Assembly (NCBI RefSeq): GCF_036345155.1 | Contig: NZ_CP107772.1 | Location: 5,890,001-5,954,000, forward strand | Length of the DNA stretch: 64,000 nucleotides | Direction of reading: 5' to 3' | Source of the DNA: Streptomyces sp. NBC_00582 | GTDB lineage: Bacteria > Actinomycetota > Actinomycetes > Streptomycetales > Streptomycetaceae | Shown here: positions 32,093-37,669 of the stretch, one piece after another | Position numbering within the stretch: position 1 is the first letter of the stretch | Layout: each line of letters opens with the position of its first letter | The notes under the pieces: generated by a model | Seen by the model: only the letters and a program-made list of their open reading frames with translations | The model's database searches: none | What the model was told of the DNA's origin: nothing | Position numbers and translations under genes: made by a program

Positions 32093-32104
32093 GCGCGTGG
32101 CCCG

Positions 32105-32803
32105 TCAGGGGCTGAGCCGCTCCACCGACCAGCCGCCGTCCGTCCTGACCACGTACCGCAGCCGGTCGTGCAGCCGGTTCTCCCGGCCCTGCCAGAACTC
32201 CACCGACTCCGGCATCACCCGGAAGCCGCCCCAGTGCGGCGGCACCGGCACCTGCTCGCCCTCCGGATACCGGGCCGTCAGCTCGGCGTAGGAGGCGTCG
32301 AGCTCGGCACGGCCGGCGATCACCGACGACTGACCGCTCGCCCACGCCCCGAGCTGCGAGCCGTGCGGCCGGGTCCGGAAGTACGCCGCCGTCTCGTCCC
32401 GTCCGGTCCGCCGCGCCACCCCGCGGACGACGACCTGCCGGGCCATCGGATGCCACGGGAAGAGCAACGACACATACGGGTTCTCGGCGAGGTCACGGGC
32501 CTTGCGGGACTCGTAGTTCGTGTAGAAGACGAACCCCCGCTCGTCGAACTGCTTCAGCAGCACCGTTCGTGAACTGGGCCGCCCCTCGGCGTCCGCCGTG
32601 GACACGACCATGGCGTTCGGCTCGAAGAGATGCGCCTCGATGGCCGCCTCCTTGAACCAGCGCGCGAACTGTTCCACGGGCGTGGCGGCCAGCTCCGCCT
32701 CGTCGAGCCCCTCCGCCCGGTACTGCTTGCGCATGGCGGCGGGGTCGGGCACGGGGCCGGAGTAGAGGGAGTCCGCGTCGGTCACATGGTCATCCTGCCG
32801 CAT
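32105..32803 (-). CDS. pdxH: Pyridoxamine 5'-phosphate oxidase
   Basis: A 232-residue FMN enzyme that oxidises pyridoxine/pyridoxamine phosphate to pyridoxal phosphate. Seen are the opening [18 protein letters not shown]-binding [19 protein letters not shown] and [11 protein letters not shown], and the C-terminal signature [20 protein letters not shown] with LHDRL. A GTG at 32785 ([10 protein letters not shown]) is a possible later start. It is divergent from the citrate synthase gene and convergent with the pseudogene. Confidence 0.95.
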
Positions 32804-32975
32804 GGAACACCCCTACGGGACGGAACACCCCTGCGAGCCACATGGCACTCAGTGCCGCACCACTCCCCAAAGGTGACACTCGGGGATATGGTGCAGATGC
32901 CACGACGAGTGCCGTACCGGCACTGTGGAGCCGTCGGCGCCACAACCCGCCGCACACCTCACGAGGAGCCGCCTG

Positions 32976-34076
32976 ATGTCCGATTTCGTACCCGGACTCG
33001 AGGGAGTCGTCGCGTTCGAGACGGAGATCGCCGAACCGGACAAGGAAGGCGGCGCCCTGCGATACCGGGGCGTCGACATCGAGGACCTGGTCGGCCATGT
33101 CTCGTTCGGCAACGTCTGGGGCCTGCTCGTGGACGGCGCCTTCAACCCCGGGCTGCCGCCCGCCGAGCCCTTCCCGATCCCCGTCCACTCCGGCGACATC
33201 CGCGTCGACGTCCAGTCCGCGCTCGCCATGCTCGCGCCCGTCTGGGGCCTCAAACCGCTCCTCGACATCGATGCCGAGCAGGCTCGTGAGGACCTCGCCC
33301 GCGCCGCCGTCATGGCCCTGTCCTACGTCGCCCAGTCCGCCCGCGGCCAGGGCCGCCCCATGGTCCCGCAGCGCGAGATCGACAAGGCCCACTCCGTCGT
33401 CGAACGCTTCATGATCCGCTGGCGCGGCGAGCCCGACCCCAAGCACGTCAAGGCCGTCGACGCCTACTGGACCTCCGCCGCCGAACACGGCATGAACGCC
33501 TCCACCTTCACCGCCCGGGTCATCGCCTCCACCGGCGCCGACGTGGCCGCCGCCCTCTCCGGGGCCGTGGGCGCCATGTCGGGCCCGCTCCACGGCGGCG
33601 CCCCCTCCCGCGTCCTGCACATGATCGAGGAGATCGAACGCACCGGCGACGCCGAGGCCTACGTCAAGCAGGCCCTCGACAAGGGCGAACGCCTCATGGG
33701 CTTCGGCCATCGCGTCTACCGCGCCGAGGACCCCCGCGCCCGCGTCCTGCGCCGCACCGCCCGCGAACTCGGCGCACCGCGCTTCGAGATCGCCGAGGCC
33801 CTGGAGAAGGCCGCCCTCGCCGAACTCCACGCCCGCCGCCCCGACCGTGTCCTCGCCACCAACGTGGAGTTCTGGGCGGCGATCATCCTCGACTTCGCCG
33901 AGGTGCCCGCGCACATGTTCACCTCGATGTTCACCTGCGCCCGCACCGCCGGCTGGTCGGCCCACATCCTGGAGCAGAAGCGCACCGGCCGCCTGGTCCG
34001 CCCCTCCGCCCGCTACATCGGCCCGGGCGTCCGCGGCCCCCGAGAGATCGAGGGCTACGAGGACATCGCGCACTGA
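32976..34076 (+). CDS. Citrate synthase (second, short type)
   Basis: A 366-residue citrate synthase-family enzyme condensing acetyl-CoA with oxaloacetate, or possibly propionyl-CoA (methylcitrate). The catalytic residues are seen as His in SGPLHGGAPSRVL, His in MGFGHRVYRAEDPRARVL, and Asp in FWAAIILDFAEVP. Length is that of the shorter bacterial or archaeal type. GAGGAG seven bases before the ATG sets the start. In Streptomyces this is usually annotated as citrate synthase 2, beside pdxH. Confidence 0.92.
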   Translation: MSDFVPGLEGVVAFETEIAEPDKEGGALRYRGVDIEDLVGHVSFGNVWGLLVDGAFNPGLPPAEPFPIPVHSGDIRVDVQSALAMLAPVWGLKPLLDIDAEQAREDLARAAVMALSYVAQSARGQGRPMVPQREIDKAHSVVERFMIRWRGEPDPKHVKAVDAYWTSAAEHGMNASTFTARVIASTGADVAAALSGAVGAMSGPLHGGAPSRVLHMIEEIERTGDAEAYVKQALDKGERLMGFGHRVYRAEDPRARVLRRTARELGAPRFEIAEALEKAALAELHARRPDRVLATNVEFWAAIILDFAEVPAHMFTSMFTCARTAGWSAHILEQKRTGRLVRPSARYIGPGVRGPREIEGYEDIAH

Positions 34077-34092
34077 GCCGTACGCGGCGTGC

Positions 34093-35121
34093 TCACGCGG
34101 GGCTGAGCAGCTCCGCGTGATGCCGCTCGGCCACCAGCGGATGGGCGCGCAGCTTCCCCTTCAGCTCATTGAAGCCGTACTCCGCGAACAGCGGATTCGC
34201 CGGATCGTCGCTCACCCCCGGAGCGGTGGAGGCGTAGGGGAAGACCAGCGGCTCCACGCGCGCGTCCAGCCGGGGGTTGTAGAAGAACGGCACGGAGAAC
34301 CGCTCGACGGCCCCCGGCGGGGAGACGACCCGATGGTTGGTGGCGACGAGGTACCCGTTGGTCGCCACCTCCAGCAACTCCCCGAGGTTCACCACGAACG
34401 CGCCCTCCACCGGCGGCACCTCGTGGAACAGGCCGTCCTCCCGCTGCACCTGGAGCCCGCCGACCCGGTCCTGGAGCAGCAGCGTCAGGAACCCGTAGTC
34501 CTTGTGGGCCCCCACTCCCTGCCCGGCCCCGTCCCCCGAGCTCCCCGGGTACCGCACCAGCTTCAGATGCGGATGCGCCCGCTCCCCGAAGGCGGAGTCG
34601 TAGAAGCCGGGATCGGCGCCGATGGACACGAGCAGCTCCCGCAGCAGCCGCTCGGCGACCCCGCTCAGCCGGTCGATCCAGGAGAGCGCGGCCTCCCGCA
34701 GCTCGGGCAGCGCGTCCGGCCACTGGTTGGGCCCTTGCAGCCACCAGTACGAGGGCTCACCGGGGCCGGGCGCCCGAGCGGGCCGTTCGGCCCCGATGTC
34801 GAGCTGGTCCCGCCAGTCCTGCCGGCCCCCGGTCCGCTCGTCCCCGGTGCGCGTGTAGCCCCGGAAGTGCGGCGAGTTCACGTTGTCGAGGGCGAGCCGC
34901 TCCGCCTCGGGCAGCCGGAAGAAGGCGTGCATGGCCCCGACCAGCCGATCGGTCTCCTCCTTGCCGACCCCGTGCCCGACGAGCTGGAAGAAGCCCACGT
35001 CGTGGGCGGCGCTGTGGAGCTGCGCATGCAGCAGCGCACGCGCCTGGGGGCCGCGGTCGGCGGCCGACAGATCGATGAGGGGGAGCCGGTCGTACGACGG
35101 TGTCGTCGCGTGGTGCGTCAT
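34093..35121 (-). CDS. 2-oxoglutarate/Fe(II) dioxygenase, isopenicillin-N-synthase-like
   Basis: A 342-residue non-haem iron oxygenase of the IPNS/DIOX fold. The N-terminal domain has LPLIDLSAADR and GFFQLVGHGV. The iron ligands are His and Asp in GAHKDYGFLTLL and His in VATNHRVVSPP. The Arg-x-Ser motif that holds 2-oxoglutarate is RFSVPFFYNP. The substrate is unknown; relatives hydroxylate or cyclise small metabolites. The start is the ATG giving MTHHATTPSYDR. It lies downstream of an unusual long predicted leader with two small ORFs. Confidence 0.9.
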   Translation of the reverse strand: MTHHATTPSYDRLPLIDLSAADRGPQARALLHAQLHSAAHDVGFFQLVGHGVGKEETDRLVGAMHAFFRLPEAERLALDNVNSPHFRGYTRTGDERTGGRQDWRDQLDIGAERPARAPGPGEPSYWWLQGPNQWPDALPELREAALSWIDRLSGVAERLLRELLVSIGADPGFYDSAFGERAHPHLKLVRYPGSSGDGAGQGVGAHKDYGFLTLLLQDRVGGLQVQREDGLFHEVPPVEGAFVVNLGELLEVATNGYLVATNHRVVSPPGAVERFSVPFFYNPRLDARVEPLVFPYASTAPGVSDDPANPLFAEYGFNELKGKLRAHPLVAERHHAELLSPA

Positions 35122-35216
35122 GGGATGCGTCCGCGGGGTGTACGGGGCACGGGCGGCCGCCGAGGGTGGGGCGGAGCCCAGCTGCCGGAAGGGGAGAAGC
35201 GAAGAAGGGGGCTGGG

Positions 35217-35291
35217 TCAGGCGGAGCGCCGACAGCCCATGCTCGTGACGCGGACGAAGTCCACGTGGCGGCGTCGAACGAGCGAAAGCAT
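35217..35291 (-). CDS. Predicted 24-residue leader peptide (Cys-containing)
   Basis: The minus strand encodes a 24-residue peptide with the core RRHVDFVRVTSMGCRRSA. The HVDxxRxxSxxC pattern matches the short actinobacterial peptides annotated as putative leader peptides, often found before sulfur or cysteine genes. A GGGG lies just before the ATG. It ends 95 bases before the dioxygenase start, the right place for attenuation or translational coupling. Peptide production is not proven. Confidence 0.6.
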   Translation of the reverse strand: MLSLVRRRHVDFVRVTSMGCRRSA

Positions 35292-35361
35292 GTTCCCCAG
35301 AGTACTGCCTGCGAAATTTTTCCCCGTGAGGGCGTTCCCGCACCGGAGAACACGGCCGGAG

Positions 35362-35446
35362 AACGCAGACGACCCGCGAGCCTGGTCCTCCCGGAGGGAG
35401 GGGCCGGCCGGACGTACCGGCGGCTCGCGGGTCGGGTGACTGCGTT
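35362..35446 (-). ncRNA. Large inverted repeat in the predicted leader RNA
   Basis: AACGCAG and GACCCGCGAGCC (35362-35368, 35371-35382) pair with GGCTCGCGGGTC and CTGCGTT (35422-35433, 35440-35446): 19 base pairs broken only by a small internal loop. It sits between the two small ORFs, so in the minus-strand transcript it could switch folding with translation. A further CGTGTGCG/CGCACGCG hairpin lies nearer the 5' end. It resembles no riboswitch class I can name. Confidence 0.5.
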
Positions 35447-35513
35447 GGATTGGCCGGCCGCGTGCGTCTCGCACACGCTGGTCCGGCACCGCACAGGGTG
35501 TGGTGGCGGGCCG

Positions 35514-35552
35514 CTAGCCCGCAGCCACCTCGCGCGTCCGGTTGTCATGCAT
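35514..35552 (-). CDS. Tiny ORF (12 codons) with near-perfect Shine-Dalgarno
   Basis: The ORF encodes MHDNRTREVAAG and stops at TAG. It is preceded by AAAGGAGGTGACC (35570-35558 on the minus strand), a full complement of the 16S rRNA 3' end and by far the strongest ribosome binding site in the window. A promoter-like pair lies just upstream. The ORF is too short for a functional enzyme, so a regulatory upstream ORF is likely. Confidence 0.55.
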   Translation of the reverse strand: MHDNRTREVAAG

Positions 35553-35584
35553 CTACCGGTCACCTCCTTTCTGCGATGCTCGCC

Positions 35585-35613
35585 ACCTTAAGAAGCCGTG
35601 CCGAGCCGCTCAA
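35585..35613 (-). promoter_or_regulatory. Candidate sigma-70-type promoter for the dioxygenase leader
   Basis: Read on the minus strand: TTGAGC (35613-35608), 17-base spacer, TAAGGT (35590-35585). Spacing and hexamers fit the housekeeping HrdB promoter. The predicted start near 35578 gives the tiny ORF a very short 5' UTR and the dioxygenase a leader of about 450 bases. Confidence 0.6.
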
Positions 35614-35665
35614 GTCTTTTTCTCCACGCATTGACGCGCGCGTGGGGGAGCGGTTCGCTGGTCAT

Positions 35666-36115
35666 GTGAATGATCTTCGGGTCGAGGCGGTCTCCGGCGG
35701 GGCCGCGCTGGAGCAGTGGCGGCACGTCCACAACGTGATCGTGCCGCCGGCCGCGCTGTCCCTGGACGAGGTACGGGAGCGGGCGGGGCGCAACCGGCTG
35801 GAGAACGCCTACGTCGGTGAGACGCTCGTCGGCTGCTCCACCGTGCGGCCGCCGACGGACGACGCGGTGGTGACGGTCGTCGCGCGCGTCCTGCCGGAGT
35901 TCCGTCGGCGGGGGTACGGGGCGGCTCTCTACGATCATGTTCTCGCGCACGCGCGCGTGCTGGGCGCCCGTGCGGTCGAGACGTGTGTGCTGGCCGTCAA
36001 CGAGGACGGGCTGCGTTTCGCACGCGCGCGTGGCTTCACCGAGGTCGAGCGCTATGTGCTGGACGGCGGGACGGCGGAATGGGTCGACCTGCGGCTGATG
36101 CCCGTTCCGGTGTGA
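35666..36115 (+). CDS. GNAT-family N-acetyltransferase
   Basis: A 149-residue acetyltransferase. The acetyl-CoA-binding stretch is VLPEFRRRGYGAALYDHVLA (about residues 80-99), followed by NEDGLRFARARGFTEVERY. The substrate is unknown. The start is uncertain: the GTG at 35666 follows a purine-rich GGGGGAG at 35644-35650 that is rather far away, and the frame is open further upstream. Divergent from the dioxygenase leader. Confidence 0.82.
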   Translation: MNDLRVEAVSGGAALEQWRHVHNVIVPPAALSLDEVRERAGRNRLENAYVGETLVGCSTVRPPTDDAVVTVVARVLPEFRRRGYGAALYDHVLAHARVLGARAVETCVLAVNEDGLRFARARGFTEVERYVLDGGTAEWVDLRLMPVPV

Positions 36116-36229: not shown

Positions 36230-37669
36230 GTGAGTGCTTCCCGGCGTAGTGGGACCACCGACGAGCTGGGCCCGGACGAGCCCGAGCAGCCGGACGGGCG
36301 CGAGCGCCCGGAGAACCCCGGCGGCCCCGACGGCGCGGACCTCCTCGCCGCGCTGCTCGACGGCATGGACGCGGCCCTGTGCGCCTTCGACGCCGACGGT
36401 GTCGTCACCCACTGGAACCGCGAGGCGGAGCGCATCCTCGGCTGGAGCGCGACGGAGGCCGTGGGGCGGCAGGGTTTCGCCGGGTGGGCGGTGCGTGAGG
36501 CGGACGCCGAGGAGGTCGAGTCGCGGCTGATGTCGGCGATGCACGCGTCGGGCCGCCAGGTGCACGAGTTCGCGCTGCTGACGAAGGACGGCGGCCGGGT
36601 GCTCGTGCGCACCCAGTCGGCCGCGGTGCGCGGACCGGACGGCAAGCCGGCCGGGCTGTACTGCGCGTTCAGCGAGGTGCACGCCCAGATCGACCTGGAG
36701 CGGTCCATCGCGCTCAGCGAGGCGCTGTTCGACGACGCCTCCTGGGGGGTCGTCCTCGTCGACGCGGATCTGCGGCCCGCCGTGGTCAACGCGCACGCCG
36801 CCCGCGCGCTCGGCACGGGCCGTACGGCGGTGCTGGGCCGTCCGCTGGGCGAGCTGCTGACCCAGGGCGTGGAGGAGCTGGAGAACGCGCTGACGCATGT
36901 CCTCGCCGAGGGCGCCCCGCCCGCTCCGGCGGAGGTGTGGGTGGGGGTGCGCACCCCGGAGGGGGAGCGCCGGCGCTGCTGGCGGAGCGGTTTTCTGCGG
37001 CTGGCCTCGCCGCTGGCGGAGGAGCCGGTGCCGCTGGGGGTCGGCTGGCTGTTCCAGGACGTCACGGAGGCCAAGCAGGGCGAGCAGGAGGCGTCCCTGC
37101 TGCGGTTCCGCACGAACCAGGTGCACCGGGCCGCGCGCGCGGCGGCCGAGTGCGAGGATCCGGCGGAGGCGGCGACGGTCCATCTCGACTTCGCGCTGGC
37201 GGGGTTCGCCGACCATGCGCTGGTCGACCGGGTCGCGGGCGGTGCGGCGGCGGACGGGGAGCCGGCGGCGGTGCCGTTGCGGCTGGTCCGGGTCGCGGCC
37301 ACCCCCTCGGGGGGGCCGGGCCCCAGCGTGCTCACCGGTCACGCGGGACTGCCGGTCCGGTACGCCGAGGGGCATCCGGCGTTGCAGTGCGTGGCGCGGG
37401 CCGGATCGGTGCGGGCGGGCGCGGGGAGCGTGCCGCCGGAGGAGACCCGGGAGTGGGCGCGGGCACGGCAGTGGCCCGAGGACACCGTGCACGCGTTGTG
37501 CGCGGTGCTGCGCAGCCGGGGGCGCACGCTGGGCGTGGTGACGTTTCTGCGCGGTGCGGGCCGCACACCCTTCGAGCGCTCCGACGCGACCTACGCCGAG
37601 GACGTCGCCGTACGGATGGCGGCGGCGCTGGACCTGGCCGACCTGGTGGAGCGGGCCGAGGACGCCTGA
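36230..37669 (+). CDS. PAS-PAS-GAF sensory protein
   Basis: A 479-residue cytoplasmic sensor. After a Pro/Glu-rich N-terminus, PAS domain 1 spans about residues 38-155 (MDAALCAFDADGVVTHWNRE, WSATEAVGRQGF), PAS domain 2 about 165-285 (SWGVVLVDADLRPAVVNAHA, ending WLFQDVTEAK), and a GAF-like domain the remainder (GRTLGVVTFLRGAGRTPFER). There is no kinase, phosphatase or cyclase domain after the sensors, although Streptomyces homologues often carry a PP2C domain. It must act through a partner. GTG start follows AGGGGG at 36219-36224. Confidence 0.85.
   Translation: MSASRRSGTTDELGPDEPEQPDGRERPENPGGPDGADLLAALLDGMDAALCAFDADGVVTHWNREAERILGWSATEAVGRQGFAGWAVREADAEEVESRLMSAMHASGRQVHEFALLTKDGGRVLVRTQSAAVRGPDGKPAGLYCAFSEVHAQIDLERSIALSEALFDDASWGVVLVDADLRPAVVNAHAARALGTGRTAVLGRPLGELLTQGVEELENALTHVLAEGAPPAPAEVWVGVRTPEGERRRCWRSGFLRLASPLAEEPVPLGVGWLFQDVTEAKQGEQEASLLRFRTNQVHRAARAAAECEDPAEAATVHLDFALAGFADHALVDRVAGGAAADGEPAAVPLRLVRVAATPSGGPGPSVLTGHAGLPVRYAEGHPALQCVARAGSVRAGAGSVPPEETREWARARQWPEDTVHALCAVLRSRGRTLGVVTFLRGAGRTPFERSDATYAEDVAVRMAAALDLADLVERAEDA

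Follow-up and report, generated by a model that had tools for sequence, protein, structure and literature searches.

The window, the whole 64-kb stretch of Streptomyces sp. NBC_00582 DNA that was analysed, carries on its minus strand a small RNA of the Ms_IGR-5 family, followed by a short Cys-containing ORF (ORF2) and a gene for a 2OG-Fe(II) dioxygenase (Table 1). All elements listed in the initial annotation (promoter, ORF1 with its Shine-Dalgarno sequence, small hairpin, long stem and ORF2) are present on that strand, and the stem described there as 19 bp consists of a 13-bp stem and a 6-bp inner stem. On the plus strand, Pfam recognises a GNAT acetyltransferase (35645-36115) and, beyond it, a PAS-domain protein (36230-37669).

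Table 1. Features of the locus, with positions numbered within the window.
Feature	Position	Strand	Basis or remark
-35 box TTGAGC	35613-35608	-	sequence
-10 box TAAGGT	35590-35585	-	17 nt from the -35 box
Small RNA promoter TTGAGC/17 nt/TAAGGT	35585..35613	-	geometry common to 235 of 272 loci
Ms_IGR-5 small RNA (RF02471)	35364..35577	-	covariance-model match, full model 1-184
Extended Shine-Dalgarno sequence AGAAAGGAGGTGACC	35558..35572	-	complementary to the 16S 3' tail
ORF1, 12 codons, MHDNRTREVAAG and stop	35514..35552	-	start, frame, length and stop kept
Pseudoknot 5' side GGAC (ORF1 codons 5-6)	35536..35539	-	pairing and compensatory changes
P2 5' side GGUGGCUGC (within ORF1 codons 8-11)	35521..35529	-	97.0% of cells paired
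Small hairpin CGTGTGCG/CGCACGCG	35477-35459	-	sequence
P2 3' side GCAGUCACC, abutting the terminal stem	35435..35443	-	alignment and compensatory changes
Terminal hairpin T, probable terminator	35370..35434	-	13-bp outer and 6-bp inner stem
Outer stem of hairpin T, 13 bp	35434-35422 with 35382-35370	-	
Pseudoknot 3' side GUCC in the terminal loop	35410..35413	-	seen in 101 of 108 loci of the held-out set
-10 box TACTCT of the ORF2-dioxygenase unit	35299..35304	-	consensus in 27 loci
ORF2 MLSLVRRRHVDFVRVTSMGCRRSA and stop, 24 codons, Cys-containing	35217..35291	-	27 of 30 dioxygenase relatives
2OG-Fe(II) dioxygenase (DIOX_N and 2OG-FeII_Oxy)	34096..35121	-	Pfam; ATG at 35121

The small RNA

An Rfam scan matched RF02471 (Ms_IGR-5) with 69.7 bits (E = 3.6e-15), above its gathering score of 45, so that by covariance-model score the RNA belongs to this family; it is the sole Rfam match above gathering score in the window. 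A CcsR1-like match on the opposite strand, with 18 bits against a cut-off of 65.3, was taken as chance. The 5' end of the RNA falls 8 nt after the -10 box, approximately at the expected transcription start, and the 3' end lies just beyond the long stem; because of these bounds, the promoter, ORF1, the small hairpin and the 19-bp stem are assigned to one known small RNA.

Ms_IGR-5 is present in 145 of 147 genomes sampled from the order, in 249 of 394 genomes of the class (247 above the cut-off) and in 57 of 296 genomes of the phylum (26 above the cut-off). Since 31 of the 57 matching genomes in the phylum search score below the Rfam cut-off, the family is probably under-counted. The distant phylum loci L047, L049, L051-L058 and L172-L182 retain the RNA, several with an ORF1 of 13-14 codons, and near-cognate ORF1 starts (CTG, ATT and ATC) occur among them.

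Promoter geometry and the distance to the Shine-Dalgarno sequence are kept in 235 of 272 loci; a control position 300 nt upstream gives 0 of 266. Positions +1, +2 and +6 to +8 behind the terminal stem are rich in T (frequencies of 0.47-0.62), after which the T frequency falls to about 0.15. These counts cover 246 of 267 loci, those in which a script detected the stem with the expected loop, and the pattern is as expected close to a transcript end. Ms_IGR-5 is probably a stand-alone transcript of about 210 nt. Published data report the family as expressed RNA in S. lividans (RNA-seq 'yes'; PMC8079986), Ms_IGR-5 as an sRNA transcription unit in S. avermitilis (PMC8780764), and expression overlapping an Ms_IGR-5 relative in M. 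smegmatis (PMC10454040). The S. coelicolor RNA scr4389, named in PMC8388888, is a candidate identity for the Ms_IGR-5 RNA. The literature searched gave no M. tuberculosis name for it, and the accessible parts of that literature held no description of an ORF1 or a pseudoknot and no assigned function.

ORF1 and its ribosome-binding site

The first set of 182 loci was reduced to 152 by removing 12 without the search motif, 17 duplicates and one without a reachable stop. ORF1 starts with ATG in 68 of the 152, TTG in 51 and GTG in 21; the remaining 12 have none of these, and in 11 of them CTG, ATT or ATC is seen nearby by eye. The stops are TAG (129), TGA (19) and TAA (4), and the length is 12 codons in 127 loci, 13 or 14 in 12 and 17 in one. 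A 12-codon ORF is also found in all 12 loci that the search motif missed. A held-out set of 120 public records, which yielded 108 loci after removal of seven at contig edges and five duplicates, has 12 codons in 106 loci and 13 in two. Because its search pattern fixed the Shine-Dalgarno sequence, GGAC and GAGGTGGCTGY, this set tests independently only the starts, the stops and the 3' partners.

Across both sets, 258 of 260 loci have their first in-frame stop exactly 5 codons after GAG, and in 235 an ATG, GTG or TTG stands at -21, 7 codons before GAG; the other two frames at these 260 loci have no comparable order of start and stop. GAG GTG itself belonged to the search motifs and was therefore not counted as evidence. 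ORF1 lengths vary by whole codons and the spacing from Shine-Dalgarno sequence to start by single bases, and no one amino acid is enriched in ORF1 among the 260 loci. By these comparative measures, ORF1 is a 12-codon frame with the marks of translation, conserved in the class and also in some groups outside it. Ribosome profiling of M. abscessus and M. smegmatis, in the accessible text of PMC4974804, reports significant reads on Ms_IGR-5 homologues and footprints on many other non-coding RNAs, with no claim for ORF1 in that text; since many non-coding RNAs show footprints too, these are weak proof of ORF1 translation.

With G-U pairs counted, the Shine-Dalgarno sequence pairs with the 16S tail over a 13-nt run in the window and over 15-16 nt in 143 of 152 loci; of the 16 letters of the tail query, 15 were confirmed, in the genome of the window only. 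The 12-mer GAAAGGAGGTGA occurs seven times in this 11.1-Mb genome, six times as the complement of a 16S tail and once at the ORF1 site, and is absent elsewhere outside the six rRNA copies and that site. Among 729 predicted gene starts, for which a generous 70 nt was searched, the longest 16S pairing is 12 nt, in two genes; the ORF1 site (13 nt) exceeds that of all 729.

Fold over ORF1

The folding energy of 35364-35577 has a z score of -4.35 (0 of 200 shuffles as low), and this value, the Rfam E value, the promoter control and the ORF1 stop kept in 258 of 260 loci place the layout beyond chance. Three helices, P2 (GGUGRCUGY within ORF1 with GCAGYCACC), the pseudoknot (ORF1 GGAC with loop GUCC) and the terminal stem, were tested on an alignment of 64 loci (A1). 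In this alignment 97.7% of cells pair and 13 pairs are changed on both sides, comprising 10 of the 10 terminal-stem pairs counted, two of nine P2 pairs and one of four pseudoknot pairs. None of 500 shuffles matches the structure on four of five measures, but 95 do as well on the remaining one, further pair types; slid versions of the structure pair in only 33-44% of cells. The pseudoknot is paired in 99.2% of cells and P2 in 97.0%, with the middle pair of P2 failing in 12 of the 64 loci.

In the held-out set, 101 of 108 loci have GUCC within the terminal loop (the best other permutation of its letters reaches 49), and P2 joins the terminal stem without a gap in 88. The last P2 pair tracks the ORF letter: C stands with G in 34 loci and with A in two, and U with A in 39, with G in 31 and with U in two. 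Seven loci have GGAU in ORF1, five with AUCC in the loop and two with GUCC (wobble); because all five belong to one family (f9), other members of which keep GGAC/GUCC, this compensation may represent few events. CGAC is met by GUCG in two of two loci, from different families, and the single CGAU locus lacks AUCG.

The 12 loci missed by the motif differ in their ORF letters and thus test P2 stringently. With the best downstream 9-mer ending in YAYC taken, nine of them form 9/9 pairs and three form 8/9, including the compensatory partners GGUGGCUAC/GUAGCCACC, GGUGACCAU/AUGGUCACC and GGUGUUCGC/GUGGACACC (ORF side first). Rearranged control 9-mers reach 9/9 pairs in 87 of 216 cases; pair counts alone are not specific, and the support for P2 is therefore taken from the compensatory changes. 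Both the conservation of the small ORFs and base-pair covariation were found by comparison across relatives.

The GCAGUCACC strand can alternatively pair with the Shine-Dalgarno sequence, which the energy model favours in the window; this pairing (GUCACC with the Shine-Dalgarno sequence) is a possible alternative closed form and would leave the other half of the motif unexplained. A further helix, P1, in which the 3' half of the Shine-Dalgarno sequence pairs with GGAC and the start codon lies in the loop, was rejected. It is kept as a possible transient only, because just 85.4% of its cells are paired and 16S pairing explains the stretch equally well.

The ORF2-dioxygenase unit

Thirty Streptomyces dioxygenase loci, the window included, were compared; these are the best 30 of 60 matches in 81 genomes, with 64-100% identity to the window protein. 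ORF2 precedes the dioxygenase in 27 of the 30, starting 134-306 nt upstream, and is missing in three. Its description as a leader-peptide-like ORF was borne out; it travels with the dioxygenase, an upstream ORF fixed before its gene, as looked for in a cysteine attenuator. A -10 consensus, GTACnCTGG, lies 6-7 nt before the ORF2 start in most of the 27 loci, with each letter of TACnCT in 70-81% of them; where several ORF2 starts were possible, the script preferred one with a -10 box. Because the box lies 6-7 nt before the start, ORF2 is probably leaderless. The initial annotation had named a transcription start between 35216 and 35122 as refuting its leader model; the conserved -10 box indicates a separate, predicted start outside that interval, near 35292, between the stem and ORF2.

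ORF2 scores 29.6 bits against NF042936 and 20.9 bits against NF042934, below the curated cut-offs of 45 and 27, respectively, and one of six ORF2s tested (that of L203, 42.6 bits) passes NF042934. With RF02471 identified, the earlier view that no known class was present no longer holds for the RNA, and ORF2 has known relatives in these two families. Cys-rich leaderless upstream ORFs near cysteine genes have been described in mycobacteria (PMC4633059). By analogy, ORF2 is likely to be an attenuator tuning the dioxygenase to cysteine or sulfur supply, and the enzyme's own Cys leader ORF is a hint that it serves sulfur or cysteine metabolism. A 2005 comparative study, PMC1262725, reportedly dealt with amino-acid regulatory RNA in actinobacteria. 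Near the dioxygenase start, within 35121-35217 on the minus strand, a conserved piece, CCCGTACACCCCGCGGACGCA, is found in most of 17 aligned loci (A2) and might pair with GCGTC of ORF2.

Proposed mechanism

On comparative grounds, the locus is best read as two neighbouring independent units, the small RNA and then the dioxygenase with its own leader ORF. The reading that we consider probable takes Unit 1 as a ribosome-gated Ms_IGR-5 RNA and Unit 2 as the dioxygenase with a Cys leader ORF. Ms_IGR-5 would be made from its own promoter and end at the terminal hairpin, and ORF1, about 25 nt from the RNA 5' end, would be translated by way of its exceptionally long Shine-Dalgarno sequence. The strand immediately 5' of the terminal hairpin would base-pair with ORF1 codons 8-11 and the hairpin loop with codons 5-6, forming a pseudoknot, and a ribosome on ORF1 and the pseudoknotted fold would be mutually exclusive. 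A ribosome on ORF1 has to unwind the two long-range helices; we therefore infer that ribosome loading acts as the switch that sets the form of the RNA, either open and translated or closed and pseudoknotted, with ribosome occupancy as the presumed regulatory signal. The switch would probably alter RNA stability, termination or action elsewhere, one possible output being that GCAGUCACC or GUCC, once freed, base-pairs with other RNAs. Translation-dependent folding, as first suggested, is plausible in this form, the ORF1 frame overlapping a covarying fold, but is not supported as a property of a dioxygenase leader.

More tentatively, and in our judgement rather unlikely, Ms_IGR-5 could be a free-standing gauge of ribosome initiation capacity, a trans-acting sRNA gated by a decoy ORF. 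Loss of free or intact small subunits (through starvation, antibiotics or cleavage of the 16S tail) would then let ORF1 collapse into the pseudoknot, and the collapse would turn the RNA into an active or stable form. Such a role would account for the extended complementarity to the 16S tail; in mycobacteria, a toxin is known that cuts this tail. Hfq is not known from the bacteria considered here, and gating, if true, would hint at the sensing of ribosome loading in such bacteria.

Unlikelier still is a dual-function RNA, in which the 12-residue ORF1 peptide would be a trans-acting product and the fold would serve only to control peptide production. The kept start, frame, length and stop would fit translation of such a peptide, Glu-Val is retained in the 12 motif-missed loci too, and Ser stands at codon 3 in 135 of 260 loci through both AGY and TCN codons. 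Residues 2-5 and 10-12 are, however, variable among loci, and codons 10-11 encode A, T, V, F, S and I while the RNA pairing persists, which disfavours constraint at the level of the peptide at codons 10-12; GAG GTG, moreover, belonged to the motif by which the 260 loci were selected, and pairing accounts for four of its bases.

Genes next to the RNA

The gene after the RNA was called by a simple codon-usage script, so that individual assignments may be in error. It lies on the opposite strand in 129 of 252 distinct loci; the 123 same-strand genes fall into 41 families, and there are 77 families overall. It is opposite in 94 of the first 150 loci, and the 109 named loci with a gene call divide into 41 opposite and 68 same-strand. 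Within single lineages one same-strand family recurs (22, 15, 12, 9 and 9 loci), and lineage-specific read-through into the same-strand gene may occur. Comparison of the loci supports the frame, the helices, the promoter and the absence of a downstream gene fixed across the phylum.

Among 35 loci from the same genus, the gene behind the RNA is the dioxygenase in six, pdxH or citA in 28 and none of these in one; most of the 35 are the best-scoring loci of the order search and not a random draw. The six are L016, L029, L043, L044, L048 and the window (32100-36100); citA adjoins in five of them and is not within reach in L044. The neighbourhood of RNA, pdxH and citA is kept in several families in rearranged form, with citA and pdxH swapping sides and strands. 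Conversely, 23 of the 30 dioxygenase loci have no RNA within 1.5 kb upstream, and ORF2 is present in 20 of these 23.

The initial annotation had joined all these elements in a single dioxygenase leader of about 450 nt, with the RNA, ORF1, ORF2 and dioxygenase co-transcribed and the folding of ORF1 controlling the dioxygenase. The elements are codirectional in the window, and the RNA lies within 1.5 kb upstream in seven of the 30 dioxygenase loci, each with ORF2 between. We nevertheless regard this reading as very improbable, and it was rejected on synteny, given next genes of 77 families with 129 of 252 on the opposite strand. The separate conserved -10 box before ORF2 and the sRNA transcription unit listed for S. 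avermitilis in PMC8780764 also speak against it. ORF1 as an amino-acid attenuator was likewise rejected: no run of codons for one amino acid is enriched, and the conserved codirectional downstream gene of a cis-acting attenuator is replaced by the 77 families. Least probable of all is a purely structural or antisense RNA with ORF1 as an accident of extended anti-16S sequence, for although parts of ORF1 are under RNA pairing constraint, the stop, written with three different codons, has a single fixed position in 258 of 260 loci, ATG, GTG or TTG stands at one exact place in 235, and the other two frames hold nothing alike.

Comparison with known systems

The RNA of Unit 1 is the same as RF02471, the whole model being matched above gathering score; the family is filed as an sRNA, and its structure line differs from the fold proposed here in leaving GCAGUCACC and the terminal loop unpaired (no P2, no pseudoknot). 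ORF2 resembles NF042936 (Ms4527A) and NF042934 (cis_reg_atten), aligning with positions 2-20 of 21 and 2-16 of 19, respectively, and standing before an enzyme gene behind a leaderless-type promoter; it differs in lying below both cut-offs, having a single Cys and preceding a 2OG dioxygenase.

Amino-acid attenuators of the trpL and leuL type, with S. lividans examples in PMC8079986, resemble the proposed switch in that a ribosome on a tiny ORF competes with pairing, whereas ORF1 has neither enrichment for one amino acid nor a phylum-wide downstream gene. The dual-function sRNAs SgrS and SR1 (PMC11133741) are likewise small RNAs that also bear a small ORF. In Ms_IGR-5, unlike these, the ORF overlaps the RNA's own fold. 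The SgrS and SR1 proteins are far longer than 12 codons. What is new within this known sRNA family is, by sequence comparison, the conserved ORF1 and the pseudoknotted fold over it, and Ms_IGR-5, common to Streptomyces and mycobacteria, gains a concrete and cheaply testable hypothesis.
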